A stretch of DNA of 61,824 bases from NCBI GenBank assembly GCA_027488865.1, contig JAIYAU010000059.1, positions 1 through 61,824 of the forward strand. Direction: 5' to 3'. Origin of the DNA: Cytophagaceae bacterium (GTDB lineage Bacteria > Bacteroidota > Bacteroidia > Cytophagales > UBA9547). Shown here in pieces: positions 15,878 to 22,195 of the stretch; within the stretch, counting starts at the first letter, position 1, and the number at the start of each line of letters is the position of its first letter. Under the pieces are notes generated by a model. The model did no database searches, was not told where the DNA came from, and was given only the letters and a program-made list of their open reading frames with translations. A program made the translations under genes and the position numbers.

Positions 15878-16345
15878 TTAATAAACCTCTATAACTCTAA
15901 CTTGTTTTTCTCTAAACAAAAAACTTTCCCCCTTTTTCTTTCCTGACATTACTTTAAAAATAGGAGATATTGTAGAAATAGCAAAAAATGTTTTGCCATC
16001 CACCTTCACCTCTCCCACGCCTGTACTTATTATAAATGACTGTGTTTCAGTAATCACCACAGCACCCAAAGAGGCTGCCTCACTTTTTTTATTAGTATCG
16101 ATACGATTAAGTACTTCTAAATTTTCTAAAGCATCTTTTAGTTTTTTATTATACATTTCTCTATCCACTTGAAGCTGCTCCTTAAATGAATCACCACCTT
16201 CTTCTGTGGAGGATTTTTCTTCATTGGCACTTTCTTGAATTTGGATTAATTGTTTTTTAATAGTGTCAACCTGATGGTTTTGAAACTTCAAACAGGCTGC
16301 AAGGATTTCTTTCTTGGAAATTAAATTATTATCTACAGATGTCAT
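15878..16345 (-). CDS. Gre-family (GreA/GreB-like) RNA polymerase accessory protein
   Basis: 155 aa. An N-terminal ~85-residue segment is helical and highly charged, with SANEEKSSTEEGGDSF forming the probable acidic turn of a coiled coil. The C-terminal ~65 residues form a small beta domain with LGAVVITETQSFIIS and FAISTISPIFKVMSGKKKGE. This is the arrangement of Gre factors, whose coiled-coil tip enters the RNA polymerase secondary channel and whose FKBP-like domain binds beside it. Sequence similarity to canonical GreA is modest. It could be an anti-Gre or Rnk-like protein, so a cleavage-factor role is inferred. It heads a probable three-gene set with a strong promoter only a few bases before the ATG. 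Confidence 0.6.
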   Translation of the reverse strand: MTSVDNNLISKKEILAACLKFQNHQVDTIKKQLIQIQESANEEKSSTEEGGDSFKEQLQVDREMYNKKLKDALENLEVLNRIDTNKKSEAASLGAVVITETQSFIISTGVGEVKVDGKTFFAISTISPIFKVMSGKKKGESFLFREKQVRVIEVY

Positions 16346-16349
16346 GATG

Positions 16350-16382
16350 CAAAGTTACAACAAAATCAATTAAAAGTTCAAA
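16350..16382 (-). promoter_or_regulatory. Strong Bacteroidota promoter for the Gre-like gene
   Basis: Reverse strand: TTTG (-33, at 16379-16382), 21-bp spacer, then TAACTTTG (-7, at 16350-16357), both exact consensus matches. The ATG begins only 4 bases after the -7 box, so the transcript would be leaderless or nearly so. Confidence 0.65.
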
Positions 16383-16390
16383 TGGTCTGC

Positions 16391-17263
16391 TTATCCAACG
16401 CTTATACGATACGAACAACGATAAGATTCACCAGAAGTTAATTTTATAATACCTTCTTTTTCTCTAAGGTCTCCCGAAGCATTAAGCGCATCTGCAACCC
16501 CTGCCCATGGTTCTAAACAAATAAATTTATCGCAGCTCTTCTTGGACCAAAGGCCAAAATAAGGGAAATTATGAAAGTCCATTTTTATATAATGTCCATT
16601 TTTAGCATTAACCAATGAAATTGATTTGCTCTGTAAATTTTTAAAAATTAACGCGTCGTTGTCAAAAAGAGATTTGGTAAGGAAAATTTTTCCATCTTTA
16701 AAAGGTGCCAATTCATATTTGCCACTTTGATACGGTCCTTCTAACAGCCAATTATTTGGTTGTTCATTTAATTCTAGTTCCAAATAATAATCCTCAAACT
16801 CAAAACCAGCCTCCCAAGGGCAATTAAACCCTGGATGTCCACCAATAGAAAAATACATTTCATTTTCGTCAGTATTTTTTACTTCATAAGTAACTAATAA
16901 TGAACTACCTTCTAATGAATAATTTACAAATAAAACGAACTTAAATGGATAGTTAACCAAACTTTCGTCGTCTTCCGTCAAAAACAAAAGCACCTCCTGA
17001 TCACCACAGGCTGCCATAGCAAATTGTTTATCCCTTGCAAATCCATGTTGCGAAAGTTCAAAGCTATTTCCCTGATATTTATAGGAATTACCAAGTAGCC
17101 TGCCTACAATTGGGAAAAGAATGGGTGCTCGGCGATTCCAGATGACAGGATCACCTTGCCACAAATATTCGTTAGGAGAAAGTTTCGATTTAATACTTTG
17201 AATCTCAGCTCCACCCTCCGAAATTTTTACCTCTAAATAATCATTGTTTATTATATACTCCAT
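16391..17263 (-). CDS. Aldose 1-epimerase (mutarotase) family protein, LacX-like
   Basis: 290 aa with the galactose-mutarotase-like beta-sandwich fold; interconverts anomers of a free or phosphorylated sugar in the cytoplasm. Visible family landmarks are RRAPILFPIVGRL near residue 45-57, LSQHGFARDKQF (the catalytic-site His, ~70-81), FSIGGHPGFNCPW (second His, ~140-152) and a C-terminal CLEPWAGVADA with the catalytic Glu. These match the LacX/YeaD branch better than canonical GalM. The actual sugar is not predictable. It has its own promoter in the spacer shared with nrtR and is followed 45 bp later by the Gre-like gene on the same strand. Confidence 0.83.
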   Translation of the reverse strand: MEYIINNDYLEVKISEGGAEIQSIKSKLSPNEYLWQGDPVIWNRRAPILFPIVGRLLGNSYKYQGNSFELSQHGFARDKQFAMAACGDQEVLLFLTEDDESLVNYPFKFVLFVNYSLEGSSLLVTYEVKNTDENEMYFSIGGHPGFNCPWEAGFEFEDYYLELELNEQPNNWLLEGPYQSGKYELAPFKDGKIFLTKSLFDNDALIFKNLQSKSISLVNAKNGHYIKMDFHNFPYFGLWSKKSCDKFICLEPWAGVADALNASGDLREKEGIIKLTSGESYRCSYRISVG

Positions 17264-17326
17264 CAGTACAGTTAATCTTAAAAGTTAGGTAATTGACAAT
17301 CTTACAACATCGATAGTTAGGCGTTA

Positions 17327-17334
17327 CAAATGTA
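17327..17334 (-). promoter_or_regulatory. Candidate -7 box for the mutarotase gene
   Basis: TACATTTG on the reverse strand, exact TAnnTTTG, with a TTG about 23 bp upstream and a predicted leader of ~57 nt. It faces away from the nrtR promoter in the same 210-bp spacer. Confidence 0.45.
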
Positions 17335-17439
17335 TTCAATAATTTATATTTTGTAATCAATTTACAGCATGGACAACCAATTTAGATTAAAACAAAAAGA
17401 ATTTTTTATAAAAACATAATCAATTACAAACCATTTTTT

Positions 17440-17465
17440 TATCTTTGCGTAATATATACACAAAG
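17440..17465 (+). promoter_or_regulatory. nrtR operon promoter overlapped by a palindromic operator
   Basis: The -7 box TATCTTTG (17440-17447) is an exact consensus match. It overlaps a 23-bp imperfect palindrome (17443-17465) with arms CTTTGCGTA and TACACAAAG around ATATA; only one pair mismatches. A dimer bound here would cover the -7 box and the start of transcription, 9 bp before the regulator's own ATG. This is the expected placement for autorepression by the NrtR-like protein encoded next. Confidence 0.6.
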
Positions 17466-17473
17466 ACAGAAAT

Positions 17474-18163
17474 ATGACAAACACATACAAATATCCAAGG
17501 CCAGCGATTACAGTAGACTGTGTGGTGTTTGGCTATGATGGAAATGAACTTAATATATTGTTAATTAAAAGAGGTATTGAACCATTTGTCGACTGTTGGG
17601 CACTTCCAGGAGGATTTGTGAGACATGATGAAACAATTGACGAAGCTGCCAAACGGGAATTGCTAGAAGAAACCTTTGTAAAAAATATTTACCTAGAGCA
17701 GCTATATACCTTTGGTGATTTATATCGGGATCCAAGAGAGAGGGTGATTTCAGTATCATATTTCGCACTCGTAAGGCAGGAAGAATTCCAAATTAAAGCT
17801 AGTACCGATGCAAATGAGGTGGCTTGGTTTAAAGTTCAAAATACTCCTGCACTCGCTTTTGATCATGAAAATATTTTGGAAATGGCTCTTAAAAGGCTAA
17901 AAAATAAAGTAAGGTATGAACCAATTGGGTTTGAATTACTTCCTCCAAAATTTCCTTTTTCAGCACTAGAACAACTTTATGAAAGCATAATTGGCAAACC
18001 CCTTGACAGAAGAAATTTTAGGAACAAGTTTCAAAAGATGGGATTGTTAACCAAACTTTCGGAAAAACAAGAAAAAGTGGCACACAAAAGAGGGTTCTTA
18101 TACCAGTTTGATTCCGACAAATACGAGCAACTAAAAAAGGACGGATTTGAATTTGCAATTTAA
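17474..18163 (+). CDS. nrtR: NrtR-like Nudix transcriptional regulator
   Basis: 229 aa. Residues ~10-140 form a Nudix domain with the box GGFVRHDETIDEAAKRELLEE (~45-65). The metal-binding REllEE is intact while the usual late Gly is replaced by Phe. The C-terminal ~80 residues (YEPIGFELLPPKFPFSALEQ onward) match the winged-helix DNA-binding domain of the NrtR family. NrtR regulators sense ADP-ribose-type molecules and control NAD genes. Here it heads an operon with an NMN adenylyltransferase and nicotinamide phosphoribosyltransferase, which fits NAD control rather than the arabinose-sensing AraR branch of the same family. A palindrome overlaps its promoter. The retained Nudix residues leave open some hydrolase activity. 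Confidence 0.85.
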   Translation: MTNTYKYPRPAITVDCVVFGYDGNELNILLIKRGIEPFVDCWALPGGFVRHDETIDEAAKRELLEETFVKNIYLEQLYTFGDLYRDPRERVISVSYFALVRQEEFQIKASTDANEVAWFKVQNTPALAFDHENILEMALKRLKNKVRYEPIGFELLPPKFPFSALEQLYESIIGKPLDRRNFRNKFQKMGLLTKLSEKQEKVAHKRGFLYQFDSDKYEQLKKDGFEFAI

Positions 18164-18191
18164 AAATTACTAAACCCAAAATAAATTAAAT

Positions 18192-19076
18192 ATGGAAGTA
18201 GGAGTAATTGTAGGTCGTTTTCAAGTGCATGAACTTCATGAAGCGCATGCGCAAATCATTAACAGTGTTCGAGAAAAACATCACAAAGTGGTTGTTTTTT
18301 TAGGAGTTTCGCCGGTTTTATGTACTAAAAAAAATCCTTTAGATTTTGTAGCACGAAAACAAATGTTGCTTCATAGATTTCCAGATATCACTGTTTTATC
18401 TATACCAGACCATCCTAGTGACGAGGAGTGGAGCAAACAATTGGATAACAGAATACGTGAGGCTGCCCCAATAGGCAAAGTGATTCTTTATGGTGGACGT
18501 GACGGATTTACGGCGTATTATCATGGTCAATTTGAGACAAAAGAACTAGAACAAACAATATTTGTAAGTGGCTCAGAGGTACGACAAGAAGTAAGTACCG
18601 AAGTTAAAAGTTCACCAGATTTTAGAGCAGGGGTAATTTATGCGGCATATAATCAATATGCAAAGGTATACCCCACTGTTGATGTGGCCATTATATATGA
18701 AGGGAATAAACTTTTGTTAGGCAAGAAGGCGAATAATCCCTTATTAAGATTTCTAGGAGGATTTACTGACCCTACAGATAGTTGTTATGAAGAAGCTGCC
18801 AAAAGAGAAGTATTTGAAGAGGCCAACATCGAAATAGGAGACATTGAATACATTGGAAGCCACCGGGTAGACGATTGGAGATATAAAAGCGAAGAAGATA
18901 AAATTATTACTATGTTATTTACGGCAAAGTATGTACATGGTGCCATTTCTCCAAAAGATGATATAGCTGAACTAAGAATAATTCATTTTGATGAACTACA
19001 CGAAAACCTATTTGTTGCCGAACACAAACCCCTATTTCACATCTTTAAAAAATTTATTTCAAAACATAAAAATTAA
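18192..19076 (+). CDS. Bifunctional NMN adenylyltransferase / Nudix hydrolase (NadM-Nudix type)
   Basis: 294 aa with two domains. Residues 1-~165 are a nucleotidyltransferase: GRFQ at 8-11, the HxGH motif in variant form HEAH (16-19), and the SxxxxR motif SGSEVR (~127-132). It would join NMN and ATP to make NAD. Residues ~170-294 are a Nudix domain with FLGGFTDPTD and AAKREVFEEANI, probably hydrolysing ADP-ribose. The Ala in place of Gly in HxGH and Asp in place of the first Glu of the Nudix box deviate from consensus. The gene lies 28 bp after nrtR and 8 bp before nadV, so the three form one operon for making NAD from nicotinamide. Confidence 0.82.
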   Translation: MEVGVIVGRFQVHELHEAHAQIINSVREKHHKVVVFLGVSPVLCTKKNPLDFVARKQMLLHRFPDITVLSIPDHPSDEEWSKQLDNRIREAAPIGKVILYGGRDGFTAYYHGQFETKELEQTIFVSGSEVRQEVSTEVKSSPDFRAGVIYAAYNQYAKVYPTVDVAIIYEGNKLLLGKKANNPLLRFLGGFTDPTDSCYEEAAKREVFEEANIEIGDIEYIGSHRVDDWRYKSEEDKIITMLFTAKYVHGAISPKDDIAELRIIHFDELHENLFVAEHKPLFHIFKKFISKHKN

Positions 19077-19084
19077 ATTAACAT

Positions 19085-20461
19085 ATGGAACAAAATATAA
19101 TTTTATTAACCGATAGTTATAAACTCAGCCATTACAAACAATATCCTACTGGTACTACTGAAATTTACTCCTATTTTGAATCTAGAGGAGGCAAATTTCC
19201 TGCAGTTACCTTCTTTGGCTTACAATATTTACTTAAAAAGTATCTTTTAGGCGTACAAGTTACTTCAGAAAAAATAGCACAAGCAGAAAAAATATATGCG
19301 GCGCATTTTGGAAACGACAAACTCTTCTACAAAGAAGGGTGGGAGTATATTCTTAAAACGCACGACGGAAAACTACCCATAAGAATAAAAGCTGTTCCTG
19401 AAGGTACAACCGTACCCGTGGGAAATGTTTTAATGACAGTGGAAAATACCGATCCGAATTGTTTTTGGCTTACCAATTTCTTGGAAACATTGCTAGTTCA
19501 GGTTTGGTATCCAACCACCGTGGCGACTCAGTCAAGAGAAATTAAAAAACTGGTTTTAAAATACCTTCAAGAAACAGGCGACGTTAGAGGAATTGATTTC
19601 AAACTACATGATTTTGGATTTAGAGGAGTATCGTCAGTCGAATCAGCTTCTATCGGTGGGGCTTCACATTTAATCAATTTTATGGGTACAGATACCGTGG
19701 TTGCACTCACCTTTATTCAAGATTATTATGATTCTAGTGCTATGTTTGGTTTCTCCATTCCTGCCGCTGAACACAGTACCATTACTTCATGGGGTCAAGA
19801 AAATGAAGCCCTTGCATATGAAAACATGCTAACTCAATATCCCGATCATCTTGTGGCGGTAGTAAGTGATTCTTATGACATCTACAATGCTTGTGAAAAA
19901 CTTTGGGGTGAGGTATTAAAAGATAAAATACTAACAAGAAAGGGTACCTTAGTGGTAAGGCCTGATTCCGGTATTCCTAAAGACGTAGTGTTAAAAACTA
20001 TTGAAATTTTGGCATCCAAGATAGGTTTTACCATTAATGACAAAGGCTTTAAAGTTCTTGATCCACATATTCGAGTTATTCAAGGCGATGGAGTTGACCA
20101 TGAAAGCATTGGACTAATTTTAGAAAATTTGAAAAATAACGGATGGTCTGCAGATAATTTAGCATTTGGTATGGGGGGTGCATTGTTGCAAAAACTGGAT
20201 AGAGATACACAAAAATTTGCCTTTAAATGTAGTGAGGCCGTAGTAAATGGTGAAAAACGCGCTGTATATAAAAATCCCGTAACGGATCTTGGCAAAAAAT
20301 CTAAAAAAGGTAGGCTCAAACTTGTAGTAGACCAACAACTAGGATATAAAACCGTAGCTGAAAGCGAACCAGGGGAAGACCAACTTGTTACGATTTTCGA
20401 AAACGGTGTTTTAACCAAAAGCTACAGTTTTGAAGAAATAAAAACAAATGCTAAAATATAA
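19085..20461 (+). CDS. nadV: Nicotinamide phosphoribosyltransferase
   Basis: 458 aa, close in length to human NAMPT and bacterial NadV. Converts nicotinamide and PRPP to NMN, the substrate of the preceding adenylyltransferase. Family signatures are plain: LLTDSYKLSHYKQYP at the N terminus, YSYFESRGGKFP, FKLHDFGFRGVSS (substrate site), the catalytic-histidine block AAEHSTITSWG (~His230), and VVRPDSGIP. The start is 8 bp after the previous stop. Two enzymes in series with their probable regulator make a compact two-step salvage path bypassing nicotinamide deamidation. A terminator hairpin follows 64 bp later. Confidence 0.95.
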   Translation: MEQNIILLTDSYKLSHYKQYPTGTTEIYSYFESRGGKFPAVTFFGLQYLLKKYLLGVQVTSEKIAQAEKIYAAHFGNDKLFYKEGWEYILKTHDGKLPIRIKAVPEGTTVPVGNVLMTVENTDPNCFWLTNFLETLLVQVWYPTTVATQSREIKKLVLKYLQETGDVRGIDFKLHDFGFRGVSSVESASIGGASHLINFMGTDTVVALTFIQDYYDSSAMFGFSIPAAEHSTITSWGQENEALAYENMLTQYPDHLVAVVSDSYDIYNACEKLWGEVLKDKILTRKGTLVVRPDSGIPKDVVLKTIEILASKIGFTINDKGFKVLDPHIRVIQGDGVDHESIGLILENLKNNGWSADNLAFGMGGALLQKLDRDTQKFAFKCSEAVVNGEKRAVYKNPVTDLGKKSKKGRLKLVVDQQLGYKTVAESEPGEDQLVTIFENGVLTKSYSFEEIKTNAKI

Positions 20462-20525
20462 AATTCCGATAATGGTTGTATTACCTAATTTTGTATTCAA
20501 AAATCTATAATTTAACCAAATTTGA

Positions 20526-20559
20526 TAGCACTGGTCATTATAAAAATTGACCAGTGCTA
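20526..20559. terminator. Bidirectional terminator between nadV and the HAD gene
   Basis: Perfect 12-bp arms TAGCACTGGTCA (20526-20537) and TGACCAGTGCTA (20548-20559), 10-base loop, followed by TTTGT on the forward strand and A/T-rich sequence on the other. It overlaps the reverse-strand HAD stop codon; the two operons converge here. Confidence 0.65.
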
Positions 20560-21168
20560 TTTGTCAATCTCCAATATATTAATAAAATCCACTGTTGCAT
20601 TGGCCGCACATTGCTCATCTACAAGAGCATCTCCTACAAATAACATCTCGCTTTTATCTAATTTAAAATCAGTTAAGATTTTATATAGACCGTCAGGGGC
20701 AGGCTTGGGAGCGTATTTTGCAGCAAAATATACCTTAATATAATTGAGTCTATGTCCCCAATTAATATTAATAATTTTATTTTGTTGTTGTAGTTCATTC
20801 CCGTTTGTAAGAATGGCAACAGGTATTTGGCGTTCTATTAAAAAATCTAAATAGATGACCGACTGAGGATACAATTCATACTTGTGCATGGGAGAATAAG
20901 TCCTCAAAATAAGTAATAGCTCCTTTTGATCTACTGGAAGTTTATAAAAATCAATGAGTTTATTAAAAAGGTTTTGCCTACCGTTTGCATCAAATTCTTG
21001 CACCAAATAATTGTAAATATGATTATTATCTATACCAAAGGTAGCACCACAAAACTCTGATATTTTTTCATAAGCCCCAAATAAATAATCCCGTTCATTA
21101 TAAAGCGTGTTGTCTAAATCAAAAACAACAAATTTGTACTTTAAAAAGTCATTAATAGTAAACTTCAT
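20557..21168 (-). CDS. HAD-superfamily phosphatase
   Basis: 203 aa. HAD motif I is FVVFDLDNTLYN (nucleophile Asp17, acid Asp19), motif II VAILTNGN, and motif III/IV K-x-APKPAPDG followed by MLFVGDALVDEQCA. The 75-residue helical cap after motif I places it near the pyrimidine 5'-nucleotidase / haloacid dehalogenase-like (C1) branch. Start taken at the ATG (MKFTIND); a GTG 24 bp upstream is in frame. It overlaps the end of the ATP-grasp gene by 17 bp, so the two are translationally coupled. Substrate unknown; in this context probably a phosphorylated sugar or nucleotide intermediate. Confidence 0.8.
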   Translation of the reverse strand: MKFTINDFLKYKFVVFDLDNTLYNERDYLFGAYEKISEFCGATFGIDNNHIYNYLVQEFDANGRQNLFNKLIDFYKLPVDQKELLLILRTYSPMHKYELYPQSVIYLDFLIERQIPVAILTNGNELQQQNKIININWGHRLNYIKVYFAAKYAPKPAPDGLYKILTDFKLDKSEMLFVGDALVDEQCAANATVDFINILEIDK

Positions 21169-22195
21169 TCCAATAACGAGAGAATTGTACACCCCACTTT
21201 ACAATTATTGCATCAAAATCAACTACCTCTCCCATCTCTTGCTTAATGGCTAATAGTGGTAAATTTACTCCAGCACCTAATGCAGACACAATAGTACCTT
21301 GCACCCTAGGATTAATTTCTAAAATATAAAACTTACCATCGCTTCCCTTCTTAAATTGAATTCCAATATTGCCATGAAGTCCAATTAATTTTATAATTGA
21401 TCTGCATTGACTAATTAGTTCTTCCTGATATATAAATTGGCCTTCTACACTGATACCACCTAACATCCTTGTTCTTAACCTTGGAACTATAATTTGAGGC
21501 TCTCCATTGTGAGCAATACAATCTACAGAATATTCTTCACCGGGCAAAAACTCACTTACCAAAAGCTCCGGAAAAGTCTGGTTTGTAAGAATTTCCACAA
21601 TTTTCTCATAGGTTATGAATGTATTATTGGGCTTTTCGTTAAACAATAAATTATATTCATCCATTGTATTGCTTATAATCCTAAACCCCCTACTTCCATT
21701 GGAAATAGAAGGCTTAAAACACACTGGCTTTGTTGGAAAACCTAATAATTTAACTGCATTTTCAAATTGTTCTAAAGATGCAACTACCTCAAATTGAGGA
21801 ACAGGATGATTAAGTTGATATAAAAAATTGTATAATTTACCTTTGTCATTCGCAGTATTGAGTGCATTTTGGTCAGAAACTAACACCCTTACGCCAGCAT
21901 TTTCAAAATATTTTTTATACTTAGAAAAAACGAACAATTCTCTAGTTACCAATGGCAAGATTACATCTATATTGTAATCCAACGCCAATTTTAACAATAT
22001 TTCATGAAAATCTTCTTGAGATGCTGACGGTATAACAACAAACTTGTTTGGGTCATGGAGGTGTTTACCATAAGCTGAAGGATTCGCATCTGCTACAAAA
22101 AGATTTACTGTTGATTCTGCCAAAAGACATTTTATAATTCCAGCAGCACCCGGGGCTCCCCCACCAGTCATTAATACGTTAATTTGCCTTGACAT
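21152..22195 (-). CDS. ATP-grasp ligase, carbamoyl-phosphate-synthase-like
   Basis: 347 aa. N-terminal Rossmann-like pre-grasp domain starts NVLMTGGGAPGAAGIIKCL. The ATP-grasp domain has KPVCFKPSISNGSRGFRI (ATP-binding lysines), SEFLPGEEYSVDCIAHNGEP, and the metal-binding HGNIGIQFKKGSDG...FYILEINPRVQGT with E-x-N-P. These proteins make amide or peptide-like bonds through acyl-phosphate. The GGGAPGAAG start resembles PylC- and CPSase-like ligases of capsule and peptidyl-nucleotide pathways. Four bases after the PIG-L deacetylase stop and overlapping the HAD gene, it is the centre of a three-enzyme operon. Acceptor and donor are unknown. Confidence 0.8.
   Translation of the reverse strand: MSRQINVLMTGGGAPGAAGIIKCLLAESTVNLFVADANPSAYGKHLHDPNKFVVIPSASQEDFHEILLKLALDYNIDVILPLVTRELFVFSKYKKYFENAGVRVLVSDQNALNTANDKGKLYNFLYQLNHPVPQFEVVASLEQFENAVKLLGFPTKPVCFKPSISNGSRGFRIISNTMDEYNLLFNEKPNNTFITYEKIVEILTNQTFPELLVSEFLPGEEYSVDCIAHNGEPQIIVPRLRTRMLGGISVEGQFIYQEELISQCRSIIKLIGLHGNIGIQFKKGSDGKFYILEINPRVQGTIVSALGAGVNLPLLAIKQEMGEVVDFDAIIVKWGVQFSRYWNEVYY

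Follow-up and report, generated by a model that had tools for sequence, protein, structure and literature searches.

How is nicotinamide salvage switched on and off in this Cytophagaceae bacterium, and is the palindrome that overlaps the promoter of its NAD genes the operator? The window, by which we mean the whole stretch of 61,824 nucleotides analysed, carries TATCTTTG on the plus strand at 17440-17447, an exact copy of the Bacteroidota −7 element TAnnTTTG. According to PMC9723704 this consensus occupies −12 to −5, which places the expected transcription start at 17452 on the same strand. The box is overlapped by the predicted operator TCTTTGCGTAATATATACACAAAGA (17442-17466, no strand assigned), which is kept in relatives. 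On inspection, the arms CTTTGCGTA-ATATA-TACACAAAG span 17443-17465, and an extra pair, T17442-A17466, lengthens the palindrome to 25 bp (10+5+10) with one mismatched pair; the TAnnTTTG box and the overlapping 23-bp palindrome with one mismatched pair, from which the original prediction started, are indeed there. The left half-site TTTGCGT (17444-17450, plus strand) lends its own TTTG to the end of the −7 box. The right half-site, 7 bp past it, is ACACAAA on the plus strand (17458-17464) and TTTGTGT on the other. The ATG of nrtR at 17474 is separated by 8 bases from 17465 and follows the palindrome end at 17466 after 7 bp.

As such, the palindrome is unremarkable. Comparable palindromes (at least 9 of 10 arm matches, spacer of 0-10, overlapping places included) occupy 94 places in the window, or 0.15 per 100 nt, and TAnnTTTG occurs 53 times on its plus strand. 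Because both are common in this AT-rich window (35% GC), neither the quality of the palindrome nor the match to TAnnTTTG is evidence when taken alone; palindrome quality per se was rejected as an argument, and the case rests on conservation. For the more specific pattern TTTGYGT-N7-ACRCAAA, the base composition of the window predicts 8.6e-6 occurrences per 300 bp and 0.12 per 4.33 Mb; the single exact occurrence of this pattern in the 4.33-Mb host genome is the window site.

The operon and its presumed repressor

The first gene, nrtR (17474-18163, plus strand), encodes a protein of 229 amino acids with a Nudix domain and an NrtR winged helix. PF00293 matches residues 11-133 (E 5e-19, over the cut-off), PF21906 matches residues 152-212 (74.4 bits against a cut-off of 27), and PF19368 (AraR_C) is also above its cut-off. 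By the matches to PF00293 and PF21906, the protein originally described as a Nudix-winged-helix regulator belongs to the NrtR family, and it is the presumed cognate repressor. The match to NF050029, the equivalog model for the ADPR responsive transcriptional repressor NtrR, reached 170.2 bits (E 5.2e-50), where more than 400 bits are needed. In the window's genome PF21906 matches this protein only, and a scan of the genome contigs with the protein itself returned only two loci.

After a gap of 28 bp follows a nadM-Nudix-like gene (18192-19076, plus strand), in which PF00293 marks a C-terminal Nudix domain and weak matches point to an N-terminal nucleotidyltransferase; the NCBIfam models for bifunctional NMN adenylyltransferase match far below their cut-offs. 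Another 8 bp further comes nadV (19085-20461, plus strand), encoding nicotinamide phosphoribosyltransferase (PF04095 and PF18127, with NF006629 above cut-off). On the other side of the site and divergently oriented, an aldose 1-epimerase gene, identified by its domain profile match, occupies 16391-17263 on the minus strand. Judged from the comparisons below, the palindrome is very likely the operator of this NrtR and controls this operon.

The site is conserved in relatives

We found nadV in 19 of 291 genomes of the order and in 30 of 395 of the phylum sample, altogether 47 different genomes with the window's included, and scanned the stretches fetched around it (16001-21500 of the window for its own genome, G000; a stretch split over contigs for G041). 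The conserved pattern TTWGYGT-N7-ACRCWAA, with at most 1 of its 14 positions mismatched, was present in the stretches of 45 of the 47 genomes, at 87 distinct sites against about 1.3 expected overall from Markov-1 resampling; these genomes are related, with many from the single family f26, and do not amount to 47 independent events. G568, which is among the 45, counts through a single weak site and has two perfect sites beside its nrtR some 15 kb off, and in G554, outside the 45, a one-mismatch site adjoins nrtR on another contig. The sole negative control is G666, a single genome with 13% contamination, which had no nrtR homolog at E ≤ 1e-15 in its genome and no site in the stretches read.

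In 38 of the 47 genomes nrtR and nadV lay within one fetched stretch. A whole-genome search of eight further nadV genomes, six with stretches not cut by a contig end and two with stretches cut, found an nrtR homolog in seven, five of them on the nadV contig within about 17 kb. Sites stand beside nrtR in G375, G591, G568 and, with one mismatch, G554, and at one of the five nrtR homologs of G483. No site was seen at the three nrtR homologs of G533 or the seven of G458, and the sites of these two genomes precede nad genes. Thus, every nadV genome with an nrtR homolog (46/46) has a site with at most one mismatch, beside nrtR or before nad genes. The original prediction had staked itself on the palindrome being conserved wherever close relatives retain the operon, and this is what we found; its reading of the palindrome as an NrtR binding site is supported, and the autoregulation that it proposed fits a site in front of nrtR. 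Since nrtR is common in the order (homologs in 126 of 291 genomes at E ≤ 1e-45), its mere presence in nadV genomes says little, and it is adjacency and the site that carry the case. Across 73 nrtR loci, NAD and non-NAD, the 49,092 nt near nrtR hold 72 sites, and the remaining 304,652 nt of these loci hold 2.

These data also bear on the idea that the palindrome is a product of chance and that the −7 box alone is conserved, being the promoter. TTTG is indeed common to the −7 box, and such palindromes are frequent in the window, but conservation is just as strong in the right half-site, for which no promoter element can account, and there are distal and additional sites as well, so that we give this idea hardly any credence.

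Paired operators are frequent in relatives, lying 50-55 bp apart, or about five helical turns, and mostly 52 bp (L066-L081, L134-L176, L032, L034 and L035; the tally counts some overlapping loci twice, for example L139/L166 and L144/L168). Two loci (L066/L067) have operators 25-28 bp apart. The window has no second operator: within 17200-17480 the runner-up differs from the pattern at 5 of 14 positions.

Predicted recognition of the half-sites

The solved structure nearest to the window protein by sequence is BtAraR (BT0354; 5bs6, 5dd4, 5ddg and 5deq; E 2.9e-55), which, as PMC4666351 describes it, has the same combination of Nudix domain and winged helix. The operator in its DNA crystal contains GTGT-N7-ACAC, GTGT being defined by the contacts (PMC4666351), and shares with the window operator the core GYGT-N7-ACRC and the spacing. 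In that complex Lys179 recognises the first G, Arg180 is intercalated between base pairs 2 and 3, and base pair 4 is contacted by Asn181 and Lys184 (PMC4666351). Aligned to BtAraR, the recognition helix of the window protein has D178, R179, R180, N181, R183 and N184. The two proteins are thus identical at D178, R180, N181 and R183, whereas K179 and K184 of BtAraR are R179 and N184 in the window, position 184 being one of the DNA contacts in BtAraR. The wing contacts align ambiguously by one residue, as K-R in one alignment and as H-K in the other. The operator base that varies between T and C, the Y of GYGT, forms with the following G the pyrimidine-G step at which Arg180 intercalates, and it appears to be the step rather than the base that is kept. 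The site, suggested to be possibly lineage-specific, is not confined to one lineage: core and spacing are those of the BtAraR operator, and the outer base, which in the window is T, unlike in the BtAraR operator, and the Y/R positions vary by clade.

The outer base varies with residue 179. Among proteins with R179, 103 of 110 half-sites have T in front of GYGT; among those with K179, 18 of 30 half-sites have A and 5 have T, a tally that keeps likely chance sites such as one after L019. In the right half only, which is under no promoter constraint, T was found in 52 of 55 cases with R179 and A in 10 of 15 with K179. Eight of 81 proteins were left out of the site tally, L003, L004, L015 and L043 as duplicates and L007, L008, L011 and L012 with the winged helix absent from the match; the tree additionally excludes the partial L010 and L151, and SoNrtR and BtAraR were entered as aligned stretches only. 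In this tree R179 marks a supported clade of 34 rows with the window (98/95), all of them except L083 from NAD loci, and a separate clade of three rows (L032/L034/L035). L005, near which no site was found, also has R179. The direction from K to R depends on a midpoint root placed on one long branch. With about two independent changes, and with other residues changing as well, the covariation between residue and base is a lead, not a proof. Position-specific correlations for NrtR were studied earlier, according to PMC5045206, which cites another study.

Twenty-four NrtR homologs outside nadV loci (L016-L031, L033 and L036-L042) have K179, R89 and an intact REXXEE, and 6 of the 24 have a core site within 250 bp upstream.

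Fusion of the probable operator with the promoter

Of 49 promoter-proximal sites from NAD and non-NAD loci, 36 carry a TA exactly where a −7 element would have it relative to the left half-site, and 6 carry one at the mirror-image offset on the right. Fourteen of 19 families have one or more sites with the TA so placed, f4 among them from non-NAD loci only. A TTG near −33 belongs to promoters of this kind. Within the 36 sites, TTG gave 29 hits at offsets 25-28 and 14 over the 36 other offsets tested, so that the layout in relatives is TTG-N19-TAnnTTTG, the final TTTG being the first four bases of the operator. The window has no TTG at the upstream distance typical of most relatives (17416-17421) and keeps the −7 match. 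Since K179 loci share the TA offset (9 of 12 sites), mostly with TTAG, the promoter fusion is not tied to the residue change.

From the site, its conservation, its pairing with nrtR, its coincidence with the −7 element, and the DNA-contact and pocket residues, all seen by comparison, we infer binding, repression rather than activation, a single operon transcript and ADP-ribose as effector. An NrtR dimer would bind GYGT-N7-ACRC through its two recognition helices in the manner of BtAraR. With the TTTG of the −7 box inside the left half-site, the bound dimer would cover the core promoter and the expected start of nrtR-nadM-nadV, shutting off the entire operon, nrtR included, by promoter occlusion and hence autorepression. 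During NAD breakdown, ADP-ribose or a closely related compound would occupy the Nudix pocket, the dimer would be released and nicotinamide salvage would be turned on.

Two other uses of an NrtR-bound site are conceivable, one by an activator and one by a repressor with NAD as co-repressor, like NdnR of C. glutamicum; the second overlaps promoter occlusion as set out above and differs in effector only. Sites for activators are as a rule found upstream of the core promoter, which counts against the activator, and a site that overlaps both the −7 element and the expected start speaks for repression. NdnR, for its part, responds to NAD (PMC4666351) and binds DNA better with it (PMC6800001). We regard these uses, taken together, as unlikely.

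The position of the start also bears on whether the palindrome works as RNA, as a hairpin in the 5′ leader or a terminator. A transcript starting at 17440 would fold (−7.0 kcal/mol, z −2.9), but a start at 17452 leaves the left arm untranscribed and a fold of 0 kcal/mol. Moreover, Y and R of the two halves vary independently: 16 of 70 core sites combine GCGT with ACAC, which in RNA would set C against A. Nor does the upstream gene, being divergent, call for a terminator. Given the expected start, the lack of a fold in the shorter leader and half-sites that vary independently, we rejected an RNA hairpin or terminator, which is as improbable as a chance palindrome.

Probable effector pocket and Nudix site

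PMC4666351 gives as ADP-ribose pocket positions, for SoNrtR and AraR respectively, Arg98/Gly89, Asn43/Phe36 and Lys76/Leu67, and describes the pocket as closed in AraR. R88 of the window protein, at the Arg98/Gly89 position, is of the ADP-ribose type, and I35 (Asn43/Phe36) and E66 (Lys76/Leu67) match neither protein; the closed-pocket signature of AraR (Phe36, Leu67, Gly89) is thus absent, I35, E66 and R88 standing in its place. R33, R85 and H131 are retained. SoNrtR of Shewanella oneidensis (3gz5/3gz6/3gz8), an ADP-ribose-responsive NAD regulator, also joins a Nudix domain to a winged helix and equals the window protein at the R, R, R and H positions of the pocket, but differs in the recognition helix (G179, K180 and S181 in BtAraR numbering). 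E66 is a catalytic Nudix glutamate. Its counterpart in SoNrtR is Lys76, so the window protein keeps the catalytic Nudix glutamates.

The Nudix signature is described as impaired in NAD-type NrtRs (PMC4666351), but it is not so in the window protein: all 38 NAD-locus proteins counted, among them that of the window (L151 omitted), have an intact REXXEE. In place of the last G of the signature the window protein has F, and this residue is also changed in 13 of the other 37 proteins. All 38 have E at pocket position 67 and R at position 89; in six impaired-box proteins (L005, L006, L009, L010, L013 and L014), position 67 is L or W and position 89 is not R. R89 together with REXXEE is not unique to NAD loci, as R89 occurs in 28 of 28 other homologs with an intact box. 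Judged by its residues, the window protein seems capable of binding ADP-ribose and perhaps of hydrolysing it. The pocket, with the precedent of other NrtRs, makes ADP-ribose the probable releasing effector.

The same residues help to decide whether the site belongs to a pentose-type (AraR/XylR-like) paralog of NrtR that merely adjoins NAD genes. Much could suggest this: BtAraR as nearest structure, the AraR_C match, the shared core and spacing, the aldose 1-epimerase gene next door, and a sugar-type homolog, L009, with nearly the same site. Against it stand the adjacency to nadV, in one stretch in most nadV genomes and within about 17 kb on the same contig in five more, the invariant E and R of the pocket, which the six impaired-box proteins lack, and the place of the window in a clade made up almost wholly of NAD loci. 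BtAraR has an arabinose pocket and arabinose genes (PMC4666351), whereas the genes downstream of the window nrtR are nadM-like and nadV, not arabinose genes, and its REXXEE is intact. A pentose-type regulator is therefore quite improbable, though a little less so than an RNA element or chance, and control of the NAD genes by their own NrtR is the reading we keep.

L009, whose Nudix box is impaired, comes from a genome of the window's own family. It has TATCTTTGCGT-N7-ACACTAAG past the stop of the homolog (L009:133-153). A further site, with one mismatch, precedes by 12 bp a divergent ORF that is sugar-kinase-like by eye (L009:1217-1237). On this comparison its operator is nearly the same as the window's and its pocket is different; a site of this sequence alone, therefore, does not say NAD.

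Comparison with known NAD regulators

MsNrtR of Mycobacterium smegmatis (PMC6800001) and Streptococcus NrtR resemble the window in having the operator on the promoter of nrtR or of a NAD gene. MsNrtR is an auto-repressor released by ADP-ribose (PMC6800001), as we propose for the window. The sites of the two, GTTTTCGA-N7-TCGAAAAC and ATA-N-TTTA-N3-TAAAA-N2-ATA, are unrelated to the window's. In Mycobacterium, NrtR controls de novo genes, and MsNrtR, as PMC6800001 reports, has lost hydrolase activity; the prototype NrtR is both hydrolase and repressor (PMC6800001).

The type of switch is thus already known, and a bifunctional hydrolase-repressor is not a new idea (PMC6800001); what the comparison shows for this bacterial group is that the operator is conserved and fits the promoter box exactly. 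The new details are the fusion of half-site and −7 box and the covariation of residue 179 with the base, and the intact Nudix site is of further interest. Among the titles and abstract openings covered by our literature search, no Bacteroidota NAD operator was reported; the founding papers, Rodionov 2008 and Huang 2009, lie outside that scope. The site provides a concrete candidate operator for control of NAD salvage in a wide set of Bacteroidota, one that is tied to a solved protein-DNA complex and whose superposition on the −7 element offers a clear mechanism for promoter occlusion. In addition, it brings together NAD and pentose branches of one family that have nearly the same DNA core and different pockets.

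More speculatively, the NAD repressor of Bacteroidota and the housekeeping sigma factor may read the same bases, the left half-site lying within TAnnTTTG; the change from K to R at position 179, on at least two branches, may have accompanied a change from TTAG to TTTG and so a full −7 match; and a regulator that has kept REXXEE may destroy its own inducer and reset itself. We put this combined picture forward tentatively, as a possibility that may well prove wrong.

Other sites and neighbouring genes

At up to two mismatches, the pattern TTTGYGT-N7-ACRCAAA occurs at 91 places in the 4.33-Mb genome, against 109 for the reversed control. As there is no excess, the genome gives no sign of a wider regulon. 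The seven one-mismatch places give no clear NAD target. Four fall within ORFs of 100 aa or more; the other three are intergenic by this measure and, as judged by eye from the ORFs, have no obvious NAD gene adjacent. One of the four (L088:1501-1521, on contig C36 of the same genome) lies inside a CinA-like ORF, near its end. The CinA family includes NMN deamidases; the site is probably there by chance.

The window nadV is 68-70% identical to nadV of phylum genomes outside its own class (L099-L105). Within its own order it is 72% identical to that of G068, but 55-59% to the next seven. This pattern makes horizontal transfer of the nrtR-nadM-nadV operon possible. Finally, genomes of family f26 (L136, L140+L167, L144+L168 and L145+L169) have a long stretch before nadV, with ORFs that by eye (in L136, L167, L168 and L169) resemble prs, Tpt1/KptA, NADAR, ADP-ribosylglycohydrolase and a WGR/helicase protein.
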